NCBI GenBank assembly: GCA_011048995.1
Contig: DSCS01000044.1
Span: 1-58,844 of the forward strand
Length of the DNA: 58,844 nucleotides
Reading direction: 5' to 3'
Source: Bacillota bacterium
GTDB lineage: Bacteria > Macinerneyibacteriota > Macinerneyibacteria > Macinerneyibacteriales > DSCS01
Shown here: positions 21,836 to 34,826 of the stretch, piece by piece
Layout of the letters: each line of letters opens with the position of its first letter
How positions within the stretch are numbered: position 1 is the first letter of the stretch
Notes under the pieces: generated by a model
Database searches by the model: none
Seen by the model: only the letters and a program-made list of their open reading frames with translations
Told to the model about the DNA's origin: nothing
Program-made: the position numbers and the translations under genes

Positions 21836-24049
21836 CTATTTTTCACTCAGAAGAAGATCCCTCAAAGTACGAATATGATCTCTCAGATGGGGCTCTTCTG
21901 CAGAGTCAGGGTCTATCCGTTCGATAAAGGAACGGGCCAAAGCTTCATCCTCCAGATATCTGTAATAAATATATGATAGCGCATAAAGCAGACGGGCATT
22001 ATCCGGGGATTTTTCCAATGCCTCACGATAAGCGAAAACCGCCTCCGGATAAAAACCTCCCTCCAGATAAAGCAGCCCCGCCTTCTCCCAGTCCGTCTCG
22101 GAGGACGCAAAAATCTGAATAAGGGAATTGATCACCGGGATCATCTTTTCAGTTGAGACTCCTTCGTCGACTTTTTTTAACAAAAAATCCATGGGTTCTT
22201 TTGTTTTGGAAGGAGTCCCCCCCACGGCGAATGTTTCATTCGATCCCATACGGATATCGTCCTGTTCAGTGTGAAACCTTATATTTACGCCGATGGTATA
22301 GATAATGAGCGAATTAAATGTGGTATCAGGATTCCGGTAGGTAATGACTACATTTCTCCCGTCTTCTCCTGCCTTATCAAACTCAAAAAAATCCTCGATC
22401 ACTTCAGGCATCTTCGAAATATTCAAAAGGGTGATCTGCTCTGTGGCAGGCTGAAAATCAGCCAGAAGGGCTTTAGCCGGTTTTTCATATTCATCATAGG
22501 GATCCCAGAGATAGAGCAATGTATGCTGGCCGACATTTAAGGAAGTAATCACATAATCGGCTAAAACATTTTTTGAAGCGATATATTGCTCTTTCCAGAC
22601 AGGATTGGGATCGGAAAGATCCAGGGTGTACCCCATAAAATTGTTGATATTTCCGTCTTTTCCCCCCAATAAAGCAATATGATTATAGCGGGAAAAATCC
22701 AAGACAGCATACCCGCTGATCTGGGGGAGCCACCCTTTAATGTCGATAGAATCAACTAATATTTTATCCTTTTGCCGCATTTCAGCCACAAAAACAGTCT
22801 CGACACCGGAAAAATAATACAGCTTTCTGTTATGCATAAAGAGACGCTCAGGGATCAGCCGTGGAAGAGAGTCCCCTTCCAAAAGAATGGAATCCCAGGA
22901 AAAATCTCTGCTGTTGAGTGTAAACCACTCCTTCTTTTCACCGTTTATAAAAAGCCATCTCTTATTGATACTGTCCCAGCGGGTCAGGGGATAATCTTCG
23001 ATTCCCTCAGGAGGCATAGCGGCATTAACCTTTTCCCAAACATCTTTAGACAGTTGATAGATATCAAACGTGTCCGTATAAAGATAGTGATTCTTCCCGT
23101 CTGTCAAAAACCCTTTCCAATCCGGCGGCAGATCCTTATAAGAGACACGGGTGTTTCTCACCATCACCAGAGCATTATCTGCGCTTTGTGATGTTTTTTG
23201 TGATGAAAGAGCATCAAGTTTTAACAGGGTTAATTTTCCTTCATAAAGACGTCTCTGCCTGATAAACGAGCGAAACAACCCTTTGAGTAAATAACCCCTC
23301 TCTGTTATATCCAATTGATCCAATTCTCCCAAATACTTATTGAACTCCGCTTCAGGAAGGTTTCTGTCCAGCAAAGCAACAAACGCATTGTAACGCTGAT
23401 GCATCTCTTCGCTTAAATAGGGGAGAAATGACGGGTCGCTCGTCATAAGGAAAAAAAGACGCGCTAAAGAATGAGACCGTGCTCTTTCTTCAAATTGCCC
23501 GAAAAGCGACTCCACCTGAGGCTTCCGACCCAAAGCAAGAGCTGAATATAATGCAATCTCACGCCCGAAATCGTCATCAGTCCCAAATTCCTCGGCCATC
23601 TCTTCCAATTCATCAGAATAATCAAGGAGAAAAAGCAATTTGGCATAGGCCAGATCGATTTCACGGGAATGGGAAACCGTTTTGATCCTTTCATAGAGAT
23701 GATACGCTTCCTGATATTCTTCTTGCTCAATATGGACAAAAAACAGCCTGTTAAGAGCCTTTTTTTCATACTCCTTTCGACTGTCTTGAGCGAGCAGCCT
23801 GCGGTAAAGAGGGAGGGCTTTTCCCGCCTCTCCGGTCCGCTCATAGATTTGAGCTTTTAAGAAAAGGGCATCATCATGAAGAGAGCGATATTTCTCACGA
23901 GAGAGTATTTTATCGCATTTTTCCAAAGAGCTTTCATAATCACCCTCTTTATAATATTTTTTGGCATTGTAAAATGTATTATAATACCCACAGGATCCAA
24001 AGAAAAGAAAACTGAGAAACAGCAGGAGAAACGCGTTTTTCTTTTTCAT
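21836..24049 (-). CDS. Large TPR-containing lipoprotein
   Basis: The 737-aa protein has a signal peptide ending in a lipobox (LFFGSC, Cys at residue 20), so it is probably attached to the outer membrane. After the Cys, [20 protein letters not shown] starts an array of TPR-like repeats covering roughly residues 25-290. A central beta-rich region of unknown type follows (many aromatic Gly/Asp turns, residues about 290-600). Near the C-terminus another TPR pair occurs ([20 protein letters not shown]). Function is unknown; BamD-like or gliding-type assembly roles are speculation. It overlaps metK by 4 bp. Confidence 0.78.
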
Positions 24050-25227
24050 AAGTTTTTGAGGATATCCTCGGTCATATCGGTCTGCTCCCAGGTAAATTCC
24101 GGAAGATTGCGTCCAAAATGGCCATACGAGGCCGTCTTTTTATAAATGGGCCGTTTCAGATCCAGACGGTCAATAATAGCTGCCGGGCGGAAGTCAAAGA
24201 CTTTTTTCAGGCAAGCCGCAATTTTTTCATCAGAAAACCGGCCTGTCCCGAATTGGTAGACCATAACAGATACGGGCTCAGCCACTCCTATGGCATAAGC
24301 CAATTGGACTTCCACCATTTTGGCCAATCCTGCAGCAACGATATTTTTTGCAACATAACGGGCGGCATAAGCAGCCGACCGGTCGACTTTTGAGGGATCT
24401 TTTCCCGAAAAGGCTCCGCCGCCGTGAGCCCCCATCCCTCCGTAGGTATCGACGATAATCTTCCTCCCTGTGAGTCCCGTATCCGCCTTCGGCCCTCCGT
24501 CCACGAAAAGCCCGGTCGGATTAATATGAATAATGACATCGTCAAATTCCACTTTTTTCTCTTCCCATTCTTCTTGAAGGATCGGTTGGATAATAACTTT
24601 TTTAACTTCACGACGAAGCTCTTCCTGCTCGATTCCGGGATCATGCTGAGTCGAGAGGACAACGGTATTCACCTTTTTTGCCGTGAACCCGTCATATTCT
24701 ATTGTTACCTGAGTCTTCCCGTCAGGGCGCAGAAAATCTAATAACCCCTTCTTTCTGACTTCGGCAAGCCGGCGGGATAATTTATGAGCATAATAGATCG
24801 GCAACGGCATAAGAGCCGGCGTCTCATCATCGGCATACCCGAACATCAGCCCCTGGTCGCCGGCCCCCTGCTCCAAATGTTTTTCCCGGTTGACGCCTCG
24901 GGCAATATCTCCTGACTGCTCATCAATGGAAGTGAGAACCGCACAGGTGTTATAATCAAATCCGTAATCCGCGCTGGTGTATCCGATCTCTTTTATCGTT
25001 TTACGGACAACACTTGGAATATCGACATAAGCATTACGGCTGGAGATCTCACCGGAGATCATCGTCAGCCCGGTGGTCACCAAAGTCTCACAGGCGACAT
25101 GAGCTTCAGGGTCCTGAGCAAGCATCTCATCCAATATTGCGTCCGAAACCTGGTCGGCGACTTTATCAGGATGCCCTTCGGTTACTGATTCGGAAGTAAA
25201 CAGATATTGTCCTTTTGGTTTTTTCAT
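24046..25227 (-). CDS. metK: S-adenosylmethionine synthetase
   Basis: MetK makes SAM from methionine and ATP. The 393-aa protein has [24 protein letters not shown] being the ATP-binding motif. The flexible loop region [12 protein letters not shown] and the P-loop-like [20 protein letters not shown] follow. Length and motif spacing are typical. SD AAAGGAGG precedes the ATG. It lies 24 bp downstream of a nucleotidyltransferase, with no SAM riboswitch visible, so expression probably follows the operon. Confidence 0.97.
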
Positions 25228-25251
25228 TCTTCAGCCTCCTTTATGCCTCTT

Positions 25252-26238
25252 TCAGGATCCTATTTGCGTATCCGGCCCTGTATTGTATCGGGACAATTCA
25301 CCTTTCAAGCAGCTTTTCGTCCCGATAATGCTTTGCTGAGCCGCCACATTCTCGACATAGGCTTCATCATAAATAATGGCGTCCCGGATGACGGCATTTT
25401 GTATCGTCACATTGCACCCGACGGAAACATAAGGGCCCAAGACGGCTCCCCGGATAACAGATCCTTCTCCGACAAACACAGGCTCGACAAACACAGTATC
25501 CGGATATTTTTGTTTCCGTTGGCACGGCCTTTGTTCCAATAAAAACCGGTTTGTTGCTAATAATGTCTCAAGGGTACCGCAGTCAAACCAATTGTCAACA
25601 TGAAAGGGTTTCATTTTGACTCCTTGCTGCAACATATGATTGAGAGCATCGGTAATTTGATATTCATTTTTTGTCTTGATATTTTCATCCACGAGATATT
25701 GCAAAGCGTCAAAAAGAGCCTCCCCTTCCCGTATATAGTAAACACCCATAAGAGCCAGATTGCTGGGGGGAATTTCCGGTTTCTCCACAAGGCTTGAAAT
25801 CATCTCCCCTTTCAATTCAACGACCCCGAAACGCCGGGGATCTTCCACATGGCGGACCCCCAGAGAAGAGCAGCCCTGTTTTACCATGGCCGGAACATCC
25901 ATATCCACAATGGTATCCCCGAGAATGATAAAAAGGTCACGGGCCTCTTCGTCAGAAGAGCGCGCTTTTAAAACAGCATGCCCCAGGCCGAGCATCTCTT
26001 TTTGTTCCACAAAACGCAGCGGAATCCCGGGATAGGCCTCTTTTACCCAGGCCGTTAGAATCTCTTTTTTATAACCCACAATAATCACGATTTCGTCAAA
26101 CTTTAAATCCCGTATCACACGGTCAATAATATGGCCGATAATAGGCCTCCCGGCCACTTGAAGCATCGCCTTCGGGATGACATGGGTATGCGGCCGCAAG
26201 CGTTTGCCGATCCCGGCTGCAGGAATGATAACCTTCAT
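25252..26238 (-). CDS. Sugar-phosphate nucleotidyltransferase
   Basis: The 328-aa protein begins with IIPAAGIGKRLRPHTHVIPK, the pyrophosphorylase signature of UTP/dTTP glucose-1-phosphate transferases. Further blocks are DEIVIIVGYKKE, LFIILGDTIVDMD, VEKPEIPPSN and NWFDCGTLETLL. A short left-handed beta-helix tail follows (VFVGEGSVIRGAVLGPYVSV). The substrate cannot be fixed from sequence. It lies immediately after the lipid kinase in the lipid operon, so it might activate a head-group sugar. SD GGAGGAGA precedes the ATG. Confidence 0.82.
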   Translation of the reverse strand: MKVIIPAAGIGKRLRPHTHVIPKAMLQVAGRPIIGHIIDRVIRDLKFDEIVIIVGYKKEILTAWVKEAYPGIPLRFVEQKEMLGLGHAVLKARSSDEEARDLFIILGDTIVDMDVPAMVKQGCSSLGVRHVEDPRRFGVVELKGEMISSLVEKPEIPPSNLALMGVYYIREGEALFDALQYLVDENIKTKNEYQITDALNHMLQQGVKMKPFHVDNWFDCGTLETLLATNRFLLEQRPCQRKQKYPDTVFVEPVFVGEGSVIRGAVLGPYVSVGCNVTIQNAVIRDAIIYDEAYVENVAAQQSIIGTKSCLKGELSRYNTGPDTQIGS

Positions 26239-26250
26239 CCGATCTCCTCC

Positions 26251-27129
26251 TCAAACGAGTATTTTAACAGCTTTAGGACATATGGCTATTTCAACTGACT
26301 CGATCTCACCCTCTGCGACATCTCCGTCGACCTGAGACGGGGCCCGCTTTGTAGAGAGTTTAACCTTGGGGACCTGATGATATTCCACATCCTGTCCGTT
26401 GATATGAGTCCCCCTTAACACATCGATAGCAAAAGAGATCGACTTCAACACTCCTTTTTCTTTAAAAATACAGACATCCAAAAGCCCGTCATCCATTTTC
26501 GCTAAAGGAGTCATGCTGTAAGGCCCCCCGTAAAACGAGGCATTGCCCACGACTACGAAATATCCTTTCTTGGGTTCAGTCCCGTCAAGGAAGTCGATAA
26601 AAACGGGCTCGGGTTTATAGGTAAAAAGAGTGGAGAACCCTGCCAGGACATACGCATAGCGGCCGATAATCTTTTTGAGATTGAAATCGACTTTGCTGAT
26701 CGTATGAGCATCAAAACCGTAGCTGACCATCAGCCCGAAGTAATTGTCCCCGATTTTCCCGACATCGTAGGCCTTCGGCTCAGCAAAATTGGCCAAATAG
26801 TACGCTGCTTCAAAGGGGTTTATAGGGATACTGAGTTCCATGGCCAAAACATTGGTCGTTCCCACAGGAATGATGCCTAAAGGCATATCGGTCCCTGCAA
26901 ATTCATTGATCGCCAAATTGACCGTCCCGTCCCCGCCGCAAATATAGACATAATCGACTTCACCGGCAGCTTCCTTCAGTGCCGAAACGATCTCATCCCG
27001 GGTCCGGACAATATCAACATCAACGGCAAATTTATTATTCCCCAAAATATACATGACCTTGGGCAGATACTCTTCCAGATGACGTTGCCCTGAATCAGGG
27101 TTTGCGATCAGTTTTATTCTTTTTTTCAT
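26251..27129 (-). CDS. Diacylglycerol/sphingosine kinase-family lipid kinase
   Basis: The 292-aa protein has the DAGK catalytic fold: LIANPDSGQRH at the start, YICGGDGTVNLAINEF (the GGDGT nucleotide-binding signature), and PLGIIPVGTTNVLAMEL. The C-terminal beta-sandwich follows (VVGNASFYGGPYSMTPLAKM, DGLLDVCIF, SQVDGDVAEG). Such kinases phosphorylate diacylglycerol, ceramide or sphingoid bases. Placed 2 bp after the SPT-like gene, a ceramide or sphingoid-base kinase is plausible but unproven. Confidence 0.88.
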   Translation of the reverse strand: MKKRIKLIANPDSGQRHLEEYLPKVMYILGNNKFAVDVDIVRTRDEIVSALKEAAGEVDYVYICGGDGTVNLAINEFAGTDMPLGIIPVGTTNVLAMELSIPINPFEAAYYLANFAEPKAYDVGKIGDNYFGLMVSYGFDAHTISKVDFNLKKIIGRYAYVLAGFSTLFTYKPEPVFIDFLDGTEPKKGYFVVVGNASFYGGPYSMTPLAKMDDGLLDVCIFKEKGVLKSISFAIDVLRGTHINGQDVEYHQVPKVKLSTKRAPSQVDGDVAEGEIESVEIAICPKAVKILV

Positions 27130-27131
27130 GC

Positions 27132-28313
27132 CTATATAATACCTAACTGTTTTCCCGCTTCTTCGAATTTTTCCAGTGCGTATTGCAGTTCATCTTTTTT
27201 ATGAGTCGCCATAAAACTGGTCCTTATAAGAGCCTGCCCTTTTGGAACAGCCGGAGAAACCGTGGGATTGACGAAGATGTTAGCTTCTTCCAACATCTTC
27301 CACATCCGGAAACACTGGTAATCGTCTCCGACAATAACAGGAATAATCGGCGTTTCCGCATGCCCGGTATCAAACCCGAGTTTTTTGAACTCCTCTAACA
27401 TAAAGCGGGTATTGTCCCACAGCTTTTCAATCCGCTCCGGCTCTTTTTCCATGACTTCCAAGGCTCCCATAACAGAACCCGCCGATCCCGGGGGAAGTGA
27501 TGCACTGAAAATAAGAGACCGTGCATTATGTTTGATAAAATCGATGATTTTCTCATCGCCGGCCACAAATCCGCCTACAGAGGCCAATGATTTCGAAAAG
27601 GTCCCCACAACAAGGTCCGCCTTTTCTGTCAACCCGAAATGTTTGGCCGTCCCCCCGCCGTCTGCCGATAAAACTCCGACTGAATGGGCATCGTCGACGA
27701 TCAGCCGCGCCCCGTACTTTTCGGCCAAAAAAGTGATAGCCGGCAAATTGGCTATATCTCCGTCCATTGAGAAGATCCCGTCAGTGACAATAACCTTGGG
27801 ATGGTTTTTGTGCAGTTTAAGAAGACGCTCCAAATGATTCATGTCAGCATGATTATAGCGCACCATTTTCCCGAATGACATTTTAATGCCGTCTAAAATG
27901 CTGGCATGGTCTAATTTATCTGTGAGGATGATATCATTTTTTCCACTGGCCACAGCAGAGATAGCTCCCAGGTTGGCCTGATATCCTGTGGCGAAGACAA
28001 GAGAAGCCTCTTTTCCCACTAATGCCGCCAATCGCTCCTCCAGTTCCAAATGAATATCCAGCGTTCCATTGAGAAACCGTGAGCCGGCACATCCTGTGCC
28101 GTACTTCTCGATCGCTTTAATGGCTCTCTTTTTAACATAAGGATGATTTGTCAGCCCCAAATAACTGTTGGATCCTAACATCAGGACTTTATGCCCGTTC
28201 ATCATGACTTTGGTATCCTGATCCGATTGAATGATACGGAAATAGGGGTAAATCCCGGCCTCCCGGGCCTTGTCAGCCAAATCATACAAATAGGCTTTTT
28301 CAAAGATGTCCAT
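27132..28313 (-). CDS. Alpha-oxoamine synthase, probable serine palmitoyltransferase
   Basis: The 393-aa PLP enzyme condenses an acyl thioester with an amino acid. Motifs are LGSNSYLGLTNHP, GTGCAGSRFLNGTLDIHLEL, the His of DKLDHASILDG, DDAHSVGVL, and the PLP lysine in GTFSKSLASVGGFV. Kbl, BioF and HemA share these. The closest pattern I recall is the bacterial SPT-like group, and the neighbours (GNAT, epimerase, lipid kinase) match a sphingolipid gene set. SD AAGGAG precedes the ATG. Kbl remains the main alternative, but no threonine dehydrogenase gene is nearby. Confidence 0.82.
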   Translation of the reverse strand: MDIFEKAYLYDLADKAREAGIYPYFRIIQSDQDTKVMMNGHKVLMLGSNSYLGLTNHPYVKKRAIKAIEKYGTGCAGSRFLNGTLDIHLELEERLAALVGKEASLVFATGYQANLGAISAVASGKNDIILTDKLDHASILDGIKMSFGKMVRYNHADMNHLERLLKLHKNHPKVIVTDGIFSMDGDIANLPAITFLAEKYGARLIVDDAHSVGVLSADGGGTAKHFGLTEKADLVVGTFSKSLASVGGFVAGDEKIIDFIKHNARSLIFSASLPPGSAGSVMGALEVMEKEPERIEKLWDNTRFMLEEFKKLGFDTGHAETPIIPVIVGDDYQCFRMWKMLEEANIFVNPTVSPAVPKGQALIRTSFMATHKKDELQYALEKFEEAGKQLGII

Positions 28314-28355
28314 AATGCTCCTTCCACCCTTAACGGGTCTATTCTAAGTTAAATT

Positions 28356-29345
28356 TCAACTGCTGCAAGGATTATTTATTCCGTAGATTGCAGCAACACC
28401 CTTTTTCAATGAATAATACGGTTCCATTCCCATACGCCCGAAATCGTTTCTCTCATAACCCCAATCTGCATTGATCTCTCTTACTTTTTCCCTGTTTAAT
28501 ATCTTGTTTTTTCCGAATTTTTCATTCAGAAAAGCGACGGCGTAAGCCAGCGGATAGGGAATGTGAAGGGCCAGAACATGTTTTCTCCCGAAAACGGAGG
28601 CCGCTTCTTTGTACAAACTCTTCTGTGTCAATATTTCTCCTCCATGTATGTGGTAGACGGGATCCTTCTGAGGCGGGCTGTTTAACGCTCTAACAGCAAA
28701 ACGGGCCAGATCCCGGGCATAAACAAGCGTAATCCTCTTTTCTTTCCACCCGATAAGAGGAGCCAGCCCCTTTTTTGCCCATTCAAAGGTCATTTTCACA
28801 TCTTCATCCCGGGACCCGTAAACGGCCGGCGGACGCACAATGATGATGTGAGTCGAGGGATCATCAAGATAGGGCCAATGAAGCGCTTCTCCCTCTAATT
28901 TAGATCTCCCGTATCGGGATATGGGCTTGCACCTATCCCGTCTTGAGGGATTATCTCCGGGGCGGGCGCAGGGGCCGGCCACAGCCAAAGAGCTCATGTA
29001 CAGGTAAGCCTTTATCCGTTCTCTGTGCTCTAAGTAAAGGTTCAGCATCATTTCAGCCATATCCCGGTTGACACGGTCAAAGATCTCAAAGCGGGGCGCC
29101 TGTGTGACCCCTGCTAAATGAAGAAGAAAACGGCAACGCGGGATATGAGGTGCCAAAGTCGACGGGTCTGAAAAATCAACAACGGCGAAATCGACCCCTT
29201 TTGATTTTAAATAGGCCGTATTGCTGCTTTTTCGGACAAGACAAAGAACCCGCGCCTGAGGCTCTGTTTCCACTATCTCATCAACGACATGCGACCCCAC
29301 AAAACCTGTGGCGCCGGTCAAACAATAATCATAATCCCATTTCAT
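28356..29345 (-). CDS. NAD-dependent epimerase/dehydratase, CerR-like reductase candidate
   Basis: The 329-aa extended SDR has the Rossmann motif TGATGFVGSHV at residues 9-19, a YxxxK pair in ISRYGRSKLEGEAL, and RPPAVYGSRDEDVK. CerR in Caulobacter is an epimerase/dehydratase that reduces 3-oxo-ceramide, and this gene sits between SPT-like and GNAT genes, as that role needs. It overlaps the GNAT gene by 17 bp. A nucleotide-sugar epimerase is the alternative. The hydrophobic C-terminal half (IPYPLAYAVAFLNEKFG) fits a membrane-associated lipid substrate. Confidence 0.78.
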   Translation of the reverse strand: MKWDYDYCLTGATGFVGSHVVDEIVETEPQARVLCLVRKSSNTAYLKSKGVDFAVVDFSDPSTLAPHIPRCRFLLHLAGVTQAPRFEIFDRVNRDMAEMMLNLYLEHRERIKAYLYMSSLAVAGPCARPGDNPSRRDRCKPISRYGRSKLEGEALHWPYLDDPSTHIIIVRPPAVYGSRDEDVKMTFEWAKKGLAPLIGWKEKRITLVYARDLARFAVRALNSPPQKDPVYHIHGGEILTQKSLYKEAASVFGRKHVLALHIPYPLAYAVAFLNEKFGKNKILNREKVREINADWGYERNDFGRMGMEPYYSLKKGVAAIYGINNPCSS

Positions 29346-30441
29346 AAATTCGAAACCTCTTATATAGCTTTGCCCCCATGTTTTCCAACTCCCGGTTCAT
29401 CAGGTCATTACTCTCCAAAATCCATCCCAAATCGGCAAACCGATATCCCCTTTTCCCGCCTTCCTGAATCATGCGGGCGATGAGAAGAAGTTCCAGCCCT
29501 TGTTTCCTGAATTCGGGGGCCACTCCGAGAATCAGAGTCCTGACCATGTCAATTTGTTTCCCTGCCTTACGGGCCTTGAAAACCCCGGTGAGGGTCACCT
29601 TTCCCTTCAGGACTTTAAGCACCCGGTTCAAGTCGGGAAGGCTCACAGACGCCCCGATGGGTTTTCCGTCTTTTAATAAAAGAAAAGCCAATCCCGGTTC
29701 CAGGACCCCTTTCAGCTCTAAAGCCAAATGGTCCAACTCCTCGGGTGTCATGGGGACAAAGCCCCAATTCTTTTCCCATGAACTGTTGTACACGGCTTTA
29801 AAGGACTCCAAAATTTGAAAGACATTCCTTTTTGTAATCGGGATCAGGGAGCATTCGTGGCGCTTCCTGACAGCTTCAGCCAAACGCAGGATCCGTTTTG
29901 CCCCTGCAATTCTTGCATCATAAAGATATGAATAGAGATCCATCGCCTTTTTCAACCCGAAATCCTCTGCACGCCGGGGGTAGTACGCCGGGTTATACGG
30001 CATCATAATCACCGGATCCCGCTCGAATCCGTCGATCAGCATGCCGCAGCTGTCATTCGTCGAAAAATTGACGGGCCCTCTTAATGCCGTCATTCCATTT
30101 TGACGGCCATAATCTGAGACAGCGGTCAATAGAGCAAAAGAGATCTCTTCCTCATATTCCGCTTCGAAAAATCCGAAAAAGCAAATCTTTTCATTATGAA
30201 AACCGTTATGTCTGTCATTTATAATGGCGGCAATCCGCCCGCAAGGACAGCCATCCCGGTAGGCCAAAAACAGTTCCACCGCCGCATGCCGGTAAAAAGG
30301 GTTTTTTTGGGGGTTGAATGTATCATATTCTGATTTTAAAAGAGGAGGAACCCAATGGGGATCATTGTTGTAGAGAACAAAGGGCAGGTTGACAAATGTT
30401 TTCAGGTCTTTTTTATTCTCGACTCTTTGTACTTGGATCAT
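29329..30441 (-). CDS. Large GNAT-like acyltransferase, ceramide synthase (bCerS) candidate
   Basis: The 370-aa protein is a GNAT-superfamily member much longer than usual. The N-terminal part shows YNNDPHWVPPLLKSE, NPFYRHAAVELFLAYRDG and GPVNFSTNDSCGMLIDG. The C-terminal acetyltransferase core is ILGVAPEFRKQGLELLLIAR, with ESNDLMNRELENMG near the end. This layout is that of the YghO-like proteins found beside bacterial SPT genes. A Caulobacter member (bCerS) N-acylates 3-ketosphinganine. SD AAGGGGA precedes ATG 30441. Assignment rests on layout and neighbours, not on seen acyl-CoA specificity. Confidence 0.8.
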   Translation of the reverse strand: MIQVQRVENKKDLKTFVNLPFVLYNNDPHWVPPLLKSEYDTFNPQKNPFYRHAAVELFLAYRDGCPCGRIAAIINDRHNGFHNEKICFFGFFEAEYEEEISFALLTAVSDYGRQNGMTALRGPVNFSTNDSCGMLIDGFERDPVIMMPYNPAYYPRRAEDFGLKKAMDLYSYLYDARIAGAKRILRLAEAVRKRHECSLIPITKRNVFQILESFKAVYNSSWEKNWGFVPMTPEELDHLALELKGVLEPGLAFLLLKDGKPIGASVSLPDLNRVLKVLKGKVTLTGVFKARKAGKQIDMVRTLILGVAPEFRKQGLELLLIARMIQEGGKRGYRFADLGWILESNDLMNRELENMGAKLYKRFRIYEMGL

Positions 30442-30832
30442 GCACCGTCCCCTTTCTTGCTAAAAGCACATACAAGCCCACCGTTAAAAATTCAACACAG
30501 TAATCTAAAAGAAAAACAGCGAAGATTCCCCCGGAAATCCTCCGCATAAAAAAAAGATAGACGAGCAGAGATGCAAAGACCTTATTTAGAATCGGAATGC
30601 GTTTCAAAATTACTTTTTCAACAAAAAGCCCTGCAAAAGAAAGACCTGTCATCATCGCCCACCAGGGATCATAAAAGATAAAAAGACATAACGAGGCCAG
30701 AATAACAAGGATTACAGCAATAATATGCGTTAAACGGCTTTTTTTAAAAAAATAAAAATAGATATTAAAGACAAAATGAAATATAAAAAATGGCGCCAAA
30801 ACGCTGATAATATGAAAATAATCGTTCATCAT
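30413..30832 (-). CDS. Small multi-pass membrane protein
   Basis: The 139-aa protein is very hydrophobic, with about four membrane segments (IISVLAPFFIFHFVFNIYFY, IIAVILVILASLCLFIF, VFASLLVYLFF, IFAVFLLDYCVEFLTVGLYV) and a basic loop (KRIPILNK). I recognise no family. It is the first gene of the sphingolipid-type operon and overlaps the GNAT gene by 29 bp, so a membrane-lipid role is plausible. The predicted transcript leader is only about 9 nt with no clear SD. Start ATG 30832 or 30829. Confidence 0.6.
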   Translation of the reverse strand: MMNDYFHIISVLAPFFIFHFVFNIYFYFFKKSRLTHIIAVILVILASLCLFIFYDPWWAMMTGLSFAGLFVEKVILKRIPILNKVFASLLVYLFFMRRISGGIFAVFLLDYCVEFLTVGLYVLLARKGTVHDPSTKSRE

Positions 30833-30847
30833 AATCCGGTAAGCCCG

Positions 30848-30876
30848 ATTATACGGGAGGGGAAGAGCATCGTCAA
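30848..30876 (-). promoter_or_regulatory. Promoter of the ceramide-type lipid operon
   Basis: On the minus strand, TTGACG and TATAAT are separated by 17 bp. The predicted start site is about 9 nt before the ATG at 30832. The promoter lies just downstream of the SDR gene stop, separating the two transcripts. Confidence 0.7.
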
Positions 30877-30890
30877 GACAACTTTTGTTC

Positions 30891-31733
30891 TCATTCCTCC
30901 GCCCGCCCCTTCCCGGCTCTTGTCAGGGACGATTTGACGAGAAAATCCCAAAGTAACGCTCCGCCCCAACGCCTCAAAGCGATAAAGAGGCGAGCATGAA
31001 CAGGAAAGACATACCGCCGACGGGGATACCGGGACAAAGCGGCTTTAAGGATTATCTGAGCCGCTTTCACAGGGGTAAGCCCGCGCTTGTAAAAGGACCG
31101 AAACAAAGCGTTTATCCGTGTATACTGAAGAGCATAAGACCTTTCACCCGAGCGTTCTCCCATTTCACCCATAGCACGCTGAGGCCAACGGGTACCCACG
31201 GCTCCCGGCTCGACAAGAATGACTTTTATACCAAGCGGAGACAATTCCTGACGCAGACAATCACTGAACCCTTCCATGGCATGCTTGGATGCGTGATACC
31301 AGCTGCCCAGAGGGAAAGAGACAATACCGGCCATGGATGAGACATTGATGATTCGTCCCGCTTTCTGCCCACGCATAGAGGGCAAAACCGCCCGGATCAT
31401 TTCGGCCGCGCCAAAAAGGTTCACATCAAATTGATTCCGAGCTTCTTCTAAAGAGACATCCTCAACAGCGCCGTAAAGTCCGAATCCGGCGTTGTTAAGC
31501 AGAACATCCACCCGACCTTCCTGTCCCAACACCTGCTCAATGAAGGAGCGGGCGGCAATGATATCAGAAAGGTCAAAAGCGGCAACAGAGATTCCTTCTT
31601 TTTCCAGTTCCCTGAGTTTTTCCCGGTTTCGGCCGCAACCGTAAACCGACCACCCTTTACGGGCGAACAACAAGGCGGACTGATATCCTATCCCTGAAGT
31701 CGCACCGGTAAGGACAAGCACTCTTTTCTTCAA
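30891..31733 (-). CDS. Short-chain dehydrogenase/reductase
   Basis: The 280-aa classical SDR has TGATSGIGYQSA for NAD(P) binding, NNAGFGLYG, the catalytic Ser in INVSSMAGI and the YxxxK as WYHASKHAMEG. The N-terminal loop GCGRNREKL suggests NADPH. It follows a TetR gene by 16 bp and precedes the lipid operon, so a 3-ketosphinganine or acyl reductase role is possible. The C-terminal hydrophobic extension (HARLFIALRRWGGALLWDFL) fits membrane association. The start is TTG 31733, with GGAG about 9 nt upstream. Confidence 0.85.
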   Translation of the reverse strand: MKKRVLVLTGATSGIGYQSALLFARKGWSVYGCGRNREKLRELEKEGISVAAFDLSDIIAARSFIEQVLGQEGRVDVLLNNAGFGLYGAVEDVSLEEARNQFDVNLFGAAEMIRAVLPSMRGQKAGRIINVSSMAGIVSFPLGSWYHASKHAMEGFSDCLRQELSPLGIKVILVEPGAVGTRWPQRAMGEMGERSGERSYALQYTRINALFRSFYKRGLTPVKAAQIILKAALSRYPRRRYVFPVHARLFIALRRWGGALLWDFLVKSSLTRAGKGRAEE

Positions 31734-31749
31734 TATGGAACTCCGGGGA

Positions 31750-32337
31750 CTACGTGTTAAGAAGCTTTAACTGTTTATAGTTCAAAGCCTTTTTGAAAGT
31801 ATCCTTAAGAGAGAGACTTCCGGTCTTAATCCACAGCATCATATAGCCTTCAAAAAGAACAATCAATTCTCCGGCCTCCTCATCAGGGTCCATAAAGGGG
31901 CGAAGACGGCCCGCTTCTTTCTCTTTTTTGAGCACAGATGCCATCTTCTGATGTATTTCCCTGTATCGTGCTTCTAAAGTCTTTAAGACAAGCGGTGTTT
32001 CTCTCTTCCCCTGAATGATCATATGGAGAAAACCCGCATCATAATCCTTCTCATTGAAAAAATCCACCGTCGCACAATAAAGAGACACCAAGTGGCGGCA
32101 TAACCCCTCGATATTTTCAATATTTTCGGGGATAAGGTCTTCATAGCGGGAGTAGATCTTTCGCAAAAAGAGATCGACTGTCTTAAGAAAGAGGTCCTCT
32201 TTTCCGGTATAATGATAATACAGGCTTCCTTTGGTAATTTCCAATGTATCTGTGATATTTTTTATAGAAACCCCTTCATACCCTTCCCGGAGGAAAAGAT
32301 CCAAAGCGACTTCAGCTATTTCCTTACGTGTCGGCAT
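31750..32337 (-). CDS. TetR/AcrR family regulator
   Basis: The 195-aa protein has the N-terminal TetR helix-turn-helix (EVALDLFLREGYEGVSIKNI, ITKGSLYYHYTGKEDLF). A helical ligand/dimer domain follows. It is divergent from a MATE exporter and co-directional with an SDR, a usual arrangement for efflux control. The ATG at 32337 is predicted to be at the transcription start, so the mRNA may be leaderless; no SD is seen. It probably represses its own gene and the exporter. Confidence 0.9.
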   Translation of the reverse strand: MPTRKEIAEVALDLFLREGYEGVSIKNITDTLEITKGSLYYHYTGKEDLFLKTVDLFLRKIYSRYEDLIPENIENIEGLCRHLVSLYCATVDFFNEKDYDAGFLHMIIQGKRETPLVLKTLEARYREIHQKMASVLKKEKEAGRLRPFMDPDEEAGELIVLFEGYMMLWIKTGSLSLKDTFKKALNYKQLKLLNT

Positions 32338-32343
32338 TCGGGT

Positions 32344-32371
32344 ATTATAATCGATTTTGATAATGATTCAA
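32344..32371 (-). promoter_or_regulatory. Promoter of the tetR-SDR operon, leaderless
   Basis: On the minus strand, TTGAAT and TATAAT are separated by 16 bp. The -10 box ends only 6 nt before the ATG, so the start site is likely the A of the ATG. It overlaps the divergent MATE promoter. Confidence 0.65.
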
Positions 32372-32445: not shown

Positions 32446-33792
32446 ATGAAAGCTTTTGGCTTATGGCATAAACTTTTTCTTATTGCAGCTCCCATAGCGC
32501 TGCAAAACCTTGTCTTCAGCTCCATCAACTTCGCCGATGTCTTTATGATCGGCAAATTGGGCCCTGCCAACATCGCCGGGGCGGGCATTGCAAATCAGAT
32601 CTATTTTCTTTTTTGCCTTACCCTTTTCGGCATTAACAGCGGAGCCGCCATTTTTATCGCCCAATTTTGGGGCCAGGGACAACACGGGTCTATTCATAAA
32701 AGCATCGGATTGGCCTTAACACTCAGTCAGGGGGCGGCTCTCCTTTTTTTCTGTTTTGCTTTTTTTTCCCCCGGGCGGCTGATCGTCCTCTATTCTCCGG
32801 ACCCGGAAGTCATTTCAGCGGGAGCCTCTTACCTGAAAATCGTCTCTACAAGCTATTTTGTAACGGCTTTTTCCTTCAGCCTTTCCATAGCATTGCGGGC
32901 CATCGCCCGTCCCTTCGTCTCCCTTTATTCCAGTCTTCTCTCATTGGCAGTCAATGTCTTTTTTAACTATACCCTGATATTCGGCCACTGGGGCTTTCCA
33001 AAACTTGGGCTTCCCGGAGCGGCCATTGCCACAGTCATCGCCCGTACATTGGAAGTGGGACTTCTCTTCCTGCTCATCCGCAGACATCATCTCCCGGTAT
33101 GGGCTCCCTTAAAGGAGATGCTCTCATTCCGTCGTCCTTTTGTGATCAAAGTCTTAGCCGTTTCAATTCCGGTTATGCTTAACGAGATCTTCTGGTCGGT
33201 GGGAATCACTTTTTACAATGTTATTTATGCCCGGATGGGGACTTTGGCTATTGCCAGCGTCCAGATCGAAAACAGCATTGAGCGGATCGCCTTCGTCTTT
33301 TTTGTCGGAATCGGAGCAGCCACCGCCACTTTAGTAGGCCATTCTATAGGAGAAGGATATTGGAAAAAGACAAGAATAATAGCAGCCAAACTCGCCCGGT
33401 TTTCTTTTTTATCGGGAGCTTTTTTGGGAGGGGTCCTGGTTCTGGCCGCTCCGGCTCTTATCGGGCTTTTCGATATCTCTTCTCTTGTACGGGAGAATGC
33501 TGTCTTTCTCCTTCGCCTTTACGGCTTCATCCTCCCTTTCCGCGCCTACAATGTAATCAATGTCATAGGTGTCTTCCGGGGGGGCGGAGATACAAAATAC
33601 TGTCTTTTTGTGGACTTGGCCGCTCTGTGGCTTGTGGGGCTTCCTGCCGCTTTTACTGCGGGACTGATTCTAAAACTGTCTCTTCCTGTTGTCTTCCTCT
33701 GCGCCGGGCTGGAAGAGATCATCAAGTCTTTTTTAGTCTTTTATCGTCATCGGTCAGGGAAATGGATTCATTCATTGTCCTCTCCGGAGTAA
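32446..33792 (+). CDS. MATE family multidrug exporter
   Basis: The 448-aa protein (ATG 32446, AAGGA 5 nt upstream) has about twelve membrane helices in two halves. The family's early block is SSINFADVFMIGKLGPANIA. The second half repeats the pattern around GPANIA-like and QIENSIERIAFVFFVGIGAA. MATE proteins expel cationic drugs or metabolites using Na+ or H+ gradients. A much longer upstream reading frame exists but has no SD or homology. The divergent TetR gene is probably its regulator. Its 3' end overlaps the convergent MRJP-like gene by 25 bp. Confidence 0.9.
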   Translation: MKAFGLWHKLFLIAAPIALQNLVFSSINFADVFMIGKLGPANIAGAGIANQIYFLFCLTLFGINSGAAIFIAQFWGQGQHGSIHKSIGLALTLSQGAALLFFCFAFFSPGRLIVLYSPDPEVISAGASYLKIVSTSYFVTAFSFSLSIALRAIARPFVSLYSSLLSLAVNVFFNYTLIFGHWGFPKLGLPGAAIATVIARTLEVGLLFLLIRRHHLPVWAPLKEMLSFRRPFVIKVLAVSIPVMLNEIFWSVGITFYNVIYARMGTLAIASVQIENSIERIAFVFFVGIGAATATLVGHSIGEGYWKKTRIIAAKLARFSFLSGAFLGGVLVLAAPALIGLFDISSLVRENAVFLLRLYGFILPFRAYNVINVIGVFRGGGDTKYCLFVDLAALWLVGLPAAFTAGLILKLSLPVVFLCAGLEEIIKSFLVFYRHRSGKWIHSLSSPE

Positions 33793-34826
33793 TCCTTTAC
33801 CCGATAGAGCTGATAAAATCCTTTGGAGGACGGAGAACGGTGAATATTGGAGGCTGTCACATAAAGGGATGAGCCGGCTGAAGCCAAAGAATCCGGCCAG
33901 GCTATGTTCAGATCTTCAAAAAGCGGGGTGATTGTCTTTGAGGAAGAGACCTTCCATATGCGTCCTGCTTCAACTCCTGTCAGATAGAGATTCCCTTTTT
34001 TGTCAAAGAGCATCCCGTCGGAGGCCGGGATAATCGCCCAAGGCTCCGGAACAAATCCGCAGAGAGAAACAAAACACCCCGGGAGAAAAAAAGCCTGCAC
34101 CGGAACACGGTAAAGAGTATGCCCCGAAAGGGCTGAAAAATAAAGGTAATGCTCTCTTTCATCCAGAGCTATCCCGTTGACATGGCTGGTAATCTTGAAA
34201 TAACGCCCCTCTACAGCCAGTCCGGATGTTTCCGACAGAAGAGCCGGGTGATGATTGAAAAAGCGCACAGAACTATTATTTTTCAGATCGACGACGATGA
34301 TCGCTCCCGCACCTGAATCTGAAAGATACGCATATTGATTTGCCGCATCAAGGCAAAAATCATTAAAATAAGACGCTTTCCTGTAGACATCTTCCGGAAA
34401 ACGGTATTCCCGGATAAACTCCCGGGTTTCTGTATCTACGGCAATCAGACGGGGTCCGGGAAGGCGTACCCCCTTGAAATCGGGATTCGCATTATCCAGT
34501 ATCCAGAGAATTCCGTCTTTTCCGGCTTTAATGCTTTGTACGTTGATAAAATGAAGCTTCTCCCCTGTTTCCCCGTCAAACGGGGCAAAGGGGCGGACAT
34601 CTCCCTGAATGACTTCCCCTAAAGAGAATGAAAAATTTATGCCCCAGGCAGGAAAGGAGACAAAAAGACGCCTTTCCGGCGTCACAGCCACACCTGTCCA
34701 TTGGGACCGGTTTTGCACTACCAGTTCAGGGGATTGCCCTAAAAGGGGGAAAGCCCAAAAGAAAAGAAAGAAAAACAGGACCCCGGAGTACTTGCCGCGC
34801 CCGTTAAAGCCCGTCAGGAAGAGCAT
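33768..34826 (-). CDS. Secreted Yellow/major royal jelly protein-like beta-propeller
   Basis: The 352-aa protein has a signal peptide (hydrophobic VLFFFLFFWAFPLLG after a basic stretch). The body resembles bacterial MRJP/Yellow family propellers: ERRLFVSFPAWG, INVQSIKAGKDGILWILDNA, FCLDAANQYAYLSDSGAGAI, LDEREHYLYFSALSGHTLYR and LYLTGVEAGRIWKV. Family functions in bacteria are unknown. It overlaps the DUF952 gene by 23 bp (start) and the MATE gene by 25 bp (end). The start ATG 34826 is inside the previous gene; coupling is likely. Confidence 0.78.
   Translation of the reverse strand: MLFLTGFNGRGKYSGVLFFFLFFWAFPLLGQSPELVVQNRSQWTGVAVTPERRLFVSFPAWGINFSFSLGEVIQGDVRPFAPFDGETGEKLHFINVQSIKAGKDGILWILDNANPDFKGVRLPGPRLIAVDTETREFIREYRFPEDVYRKASYFNDFCLDAANQYAYLSDSGAGAIIVVDLKNNSSVRFFNHHPALLSETSGLAVEGRYFKITSHVNGIALDEREHYLYFSALSGHTLYRVPVQAFFLPGCFVSLCGFVPEPWAIIPASDGMLFDKKGNLYLTGVEAGRIWKVSSSKTITPLFEDLNIAWPDSLASAGSSLYVTASNIHRSPSSKGFYQLYRVKDYSGEDNE

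Follow-up and report, generated by a model that had tools for sequence, protein, structure and literature searches.

Gene Content and Organization of the Locus

The window, meaning the whole stretch of 58,844 nucleotides analyzed here, is one entire contig of a 1.88 Mb genome (99.7% complete) from Candidatus Mcinerneyibacteriota, a phylum represented by three genomes in the genome set, all of which encode a serine palmitoyltransferase (SPT). Open reading frames together with Pfam and NCBIfam matches showed that all genes named in an earlier note on this DNA are open and follow one another on the minus strand in the order proposed there. The features of the locus are as follows:

31750-32337, minus strand: TetR, just upstream of the operon and on the same strand
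30891..31733, minus strand: classical SDR upstream of the promoter, dispensable for the core reading (KdsR model below cut-off)
30848..30876, minus strand: sigma-70-type promoter, TTGACG-17-TATAAT (11/12 matches)
30413..30832, minus strand: small membrane protein, 139 aa, without Pfam or NCBIfam match
29329..30441, minus strand: tandem-GNAT N-acyltransferase of the bCerS/YghO family, predicted ceramide synthase (YghO identity, clade, fold)
28356..29345, minus strand: NAD-dependent epimerase-type reductase of the CerR family, predicted 3-oxo-ceramide reductase (HMM and PDB matches)
27132..28313, minus strand: predicted SPT (3a2b match, tree, AU test, catalytic residues)
26251..27129, minus strand: YegS/DgkB-type lipid kinase, candidate ceramide or sphinganine kinase (PF00781 and PF19279, TIGR00147)
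25252..26238, minus strand: sugar-1-phosphate nucleotidyltransferase with a left-handed beta-helix tail (PF00483, 1.4e-29)
24046..25227, minus strand: metK, S-adenosylmethionine synthetase (TIGR01034, 583 bits, cut-off 309)
21836..24049, minus strand: TPR protein, final gene of the co-directional run (TPR domains; order kept in the phylum)

The operon had been placed at 24046-30876, and its gene order stands; metK (24046-25227), however, lies inside that span and was missing from the accompanying text. The genes do overlap or nearly touch, as had been claimed, with gaps of -29, -17, 42, 2, and 12 nt from the small membrane protein to the nucleotidyltransferase, followed by 24 and -4 nt, the last being the 4 nt overlap between metK and the TPR gene. 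The one good promoter anticipated ahead of the run was likewise recovered. The element at 30876-30848 is the top-ranked of 24 candidates across 11.5 kb, fits the sigma-70 pattern at 11 of 12 positions, and keeps its place in every one of the three phylum genomes, the ATG of the small membrane protein gene following the -10 box after only 15 nt each time.

The complete order (small membrane protein, GNAT, epimerase, SPT, kinase, nucleotidyltransferase, metK, TPR) is identical in 3/3 phylum genomes, with per-gene identities of 26-93% to both other genomes from the small membrane protein through the TPR protein, and its recurrence in both of them argues that the arrangement is not due to chance. 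The nearest named relative is a Candidatus Mcinerneyibacteriota MAG (JAFGWL010000036.1, GNAT 74% identical), followed by Ca. Mcinerneyibacterium aminivorans (VSIX01000092.1, GNAT 47% identical).

Upstream of the promoter, a role as 3-ketosphinganine reductase of the Bacteroides type was weighed for the SDR (30891-31733) and rejected, the KdsR score of the protein being 188 bits against a cut-off of 400; an orthologue-level match to it was not found in the one other phylum genome searched. A TATAAT upstream of TetR (window 32337-32371) ends 6 nt 5′ of the TetR ATG, a spacing that suggests a leaderless TetR transcript. Further away, at window 33768-34826, a gene adjoining that of a MATE transporter encodes a major royal jelly domain protein (PF03022).

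Serine Palmitoyltransferase

In a PDB search, the SPT-like protein matched the solved Sphingobacterium SPT 3a2b with an E-value of 2.8e-137 (461 bits), whereas chains of the Kbl/BioF type scored 1e-101 or weaker. A tree built from 37 proteins split Kbl/BioF, with support of 100/98, from an SPT side of 31 rows to which 3a2b and the Sphingomonas SPT belong, and constraining the window protein into Kbl/BioF was 147 lnL units worse (p-AU 0.0002), in agreement with the earlier description of it as SPT-like. Bacteroidota SPTs share a 12-row clade with it. Among the curated NCBIfam models, the SPT model NF047600 gave 572 bits, which is under its cut-off of 640, yet it is the best model by 147 bits; this cut-off is an annotation threshold rather than a property of the enzyme, and the model's name, SerpalmtaseCFB, points to the SPTs of Bacteroidota.

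Enzymes of the SPT family rely on a PLP lysine, a histidine that stacks on the cofactor, and a catalytic Asp/His pair. Alignment of the active site located all of these in the window protein: the PLP lysine K241 lies within GTFSKS, where Kbl has GTLGK and BioF VTFGK, and H210 and the DHASI and VDDAH motifs are retained.

N-Acyltransferase of the bCerS/YghO Type

No Pfam family matched the GNAT above its cut-off. The protein is 30% identical to E. coli YghO over the full length, and in a quick tree of 53 rows with SH-aLRT support only, it falls within a 49-row starred clade that also holds YghO and the bCerS homologue from Sphingomonas; YghO and a Sphingomonas plasmid set were the references used in place of Caulobacter's own sequences. 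This placement upholds the earlier description of the protein as YghO/bCerS-like. Also in the clade is Pseudomonas veronii YghO, whose gene adjoins an SPT-like gene; the gene for the Sphingomonas homologue, an acyltransferase of Sphingomonas parapaucimobilis, has SPT, ACP, and CerR-like genes a few kb away. An NWGF(V/I)P-type motif is common to the GNAT and YghO/bCerS-type proteins in the alignment, and the structure model (pLDDT 91.9) adopts a tandem-GNAT fold, with tandem GNATs as its top PDB matches.

The genome also has a second GNAT, on contig C19, which was tried as an alternative bCerS and rejected, since it lies outside the YghO/bCerS clade, as does a Prevotella GNAT. In a fourth MAG, L090, which carries the Mcinerneyibacteriota label, the GNAT groups with one from Cloacimonadota, and no SPT was present on the stretch read; a GNAT of another clade with no nearby SPT under this phylum label is a point against the ceramide reading of the operon.

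Reductase and Small Membrane Protein

An HMM built from 31 SPT-linked epimerases, all from outside the host phylum, gave 248 bits for the window protein, 188 for the Sphingomonas CerR homologue, 131 for the best paralogue in the genome (contig C8), and 84 for GalE, so that the epimerase-type protein scores as a CerR-like reductase. NDUFA9 chains are found among its PDB matches, and Caulobacter CerR is related to NDUFA9 (PMC11087976). The Caulobacter enzyme is periplasmic. No signal peptide is evident on reading the N-terminus of the window reductase, MKWDYDYCLTGATGFVGSHV.

The small membrane protein at the head of the operon has four to five predicted helices and a structure model of low confidence (pLDDT 62), and no Pfam or NCBIfam match would assign it a role. 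All clear homologues found (86% and 35% identical) come from within the phylum, with one marginal match elsewhere, making the protein essentially phylum-specific as judged by homology searching. A role as a sphingolipid-specific membrane factor of the phylum, such as a transporter or anchor needed to move 3-oxo-ceramide across the inner membrane, may be proposed for it, although such a role is doubtful. The authors of PMC11087976 had identified no bacterial sphingolipid flippase.

Linkage in Other Phyla and Comparison with Known Systems

The genome collection was scanned with a 6-row GNAT alignment as the query. SPT lies within 10 kb of a bCerS/YghO-type GNAT in at least 43 of the 80 best named loci, and an epimerase is near it on the fetched stretch in at least 39; the 80 loci include two from the host phylum, and many sit on short contigs, which makes these counts lower bounds. 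The linked loci span Zixibacteria, Ignavibacteriota, Nitrospirota, Acidobacteriota, Chloroflexota, and others, and SPT-GNAT-epimerase sets were found in Rubrobacter, Streptomyces, Aureispira, and Sphingomonas. On plasmid 1 of Rubrobacter radiotolerans (L190), a compact set of this kind lies near CRISPR genes and beside a gene of the LTA synthase family. The SPT-bCerS-CerR set has already been published as spread across many phyla (PMC11334938; the set is also described in PMC9386255), and the core of the window operon is thus a member of a known system.

Like the window, Caulobacter crescentus encodes SPT, a GNAT-type N-acyltransferase, an epimerase-type reductase, and a lipid kinase together (PMC9386255, PMC11324152), in the region CC_1152-CC_1165 with SPT as CC_1162, CerR/epi as CC_1164, bCerS/aca as CC_1154, and CpgB as CC_1160. 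The window differs in lacking the AcpR/AasR pair and CpgA/CpgC, in the order of the core genes, in having a kinase that is a candidate, and in additionally holding metK and the nucleotidyltransferase. The clusters of Zixibacteria, Ignavibacteriota, Nitrospirota, Rubrobacter, Streptomyces, and others resemble the window in the adjacency of SPT and this type of GNAT and in a nearby reductase, but on the stretches read they carry no adjacent YegS-type kinase (with rare exceptions), small membrane protein, or metK pair. The Bacteroidales SPT locus (Parabacteroides, Bacteroides) resembles the window in the DAGK-family gene that adjoins SPT; it is unlike the window in its divergent orientation, in the 26-31% identity of its kinase to that of the window, and in having no bCerS or CerR beside SPT.

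Lipid Kinase, Nucleotidyltransferase, and Head-Group Chemistry

The lipid kinase combines PF00781 and PF19279, scores over the cut-off of TIGR00147, belongs to the YegS/BmrU family, and carries a GGDGT motif at about residue 65. Its gene adjoins that of SPT in 3/3 phylum genomes. Bacterial lipid kinases that act on ceramide or sphinganine have been described, namely Caulobacter CpgB and Porphyromonas dhSphK1 (PMC10331486, PMC9045371), and a ceramide or sphinganine kinase is a plausible assignment for the window protein.

For the nucleotidyltransferase, homologues are present in 57 of 145 genomes. Of the 27 best from other phyla, 15 have metK as an adjacent or near neighbor (about 1.5 kb), while none has an SPT, GNAT, or kinase neighbor within about 1.5 kb. 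These neighborhoods point to a sugar-nucleotide enzyme that probably travels with metK, and they speak against the head-group role that had been suggested for it earlier. Many phyla have the nucleotidyltransferase-metK pair (L144-L170), frequently with a SIS-domain protein alongside; beside several of the homologues, this protein resembles phosphoglucose/phosphomannose isomerases by eye.

A dedicated module, in which the nucleotidyltransferase and the kinase would activate a sugar or alcohol phosphate and attach it to ceramide, could nevertheless be drawn from the retention of both genes between SPT and metK throughout the phylum, from the DAGK-family gene at the Bacteroidales SPT locus, and from Caulobacter, where ceramide is decorated by the kinase CpgB and nucleotidyltransferase-like proteins (PMC11324152). 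Besides the company that the nucleotidyltransferase keeps elsewhere, this proposal is countered by the absence of a glycosyltransferase from the operon and by the finding of a single CDP-alcohol phosphotransferase in the genome, a PgsA-PgpA fusion, and we regard it as unlikely.

Proposed Pathway and Alternatives

We consider it very probable that what this operon specifies in Candidatus Mcinerneyibacteriota is the ceramide pathway already known from bacteria. Family, tree, motif, and synteny lend good support to that reading for the predicted core trio of SPT, GNAT, and reductase; the earlier assignment of the three to ceramide families gains from the trees, the HMM, the GNAT motif, the likeness to NDUFA9, and the conserved linkage, with NF047600 remaining below its cut-off. 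The individual steps, their sequence, and the end product are inferred from relatives that have been studied. Briefly, SPT would join L-serine, or possibly alanine, and an acyl thioester to give 3-oxo-sphinganine, which the YghO/bCerS-type GNAT would N-acylate to 3-oxo-ceramide; the CerR-type reductase would then reduce the keto group of the latter to yield dihydroceramide. The lipid kinase would most likely phosphorylate the ceramide product or the free base, and the nucleotidyltransferase and metK are probably a housekeeping pair on the shared transcript. A dedicated ACP or acyl-ACP synthetase, as found in the cluster of Rhodobacteria (PMC9386255), is absent from the operon, which counts against the ceramide reading.

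The product might instead be another SPT-derived lipid, either a 1-deoxyceramide made with alanine or a sulfonolipid made with cysteate. Alanine is an accepted substrate of SPT, and 1-deoxyceramides have been tied to Black Sea bacteria that carry such genes (PMC11334938); the sequence, for its part, offers no reliable readout of the amino acid preference of the enzyme. Cysteate fatty acyltransferase is homologous to the window SPT and matches it at 248 bits, but 3a2b scores far higher at 461 bits and the residues around PLP agree with those of 3a2b, and a product other than serine-based ceramide is accordingly given a low probability. That the SPT-like protein is a Kbl/BioF homologue among unrelated housekeeping genes is highly improbable: it shares their fold family and is matched strongly by the BioF and Kbl models, but the tree and the AU test place it elsewhere, the genome has a distinct Kbl-like protein on contig C38, and the link to bCerS- and CerR-type genes is kept across phyla.

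Membrane Context and Significance

LpxC is present in the genome, PS decarboxylase was not found in the 99.7%-complete draft, and the sole CDP-alcohol phosphotransferase found is PgsA fused to PgpA (334 aa, L135:988-1992), both names having been assigned from reading the sequence. From these genes, the organism is probably a diderm with LPS and without a PS/PE route, as far as the draft genome goes. The lack of a detected PS decarboxylase, together with the fusion as the only CDP-alcohol phosphotransferase, also leads us to infer that sphingolipids could be a major membrane lipid in this organism.

The spread of SPT-bCerS-CerR having been published (PMC11334938), the locus will be a small surprise to the specialist. 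It documents the full predicted ceramide gene set in a further uncultured and little-known phylum, and, with a conserved promoter and the kinase joined to the three core genes in a single operon, it would make a compact unit for heterologous expression.
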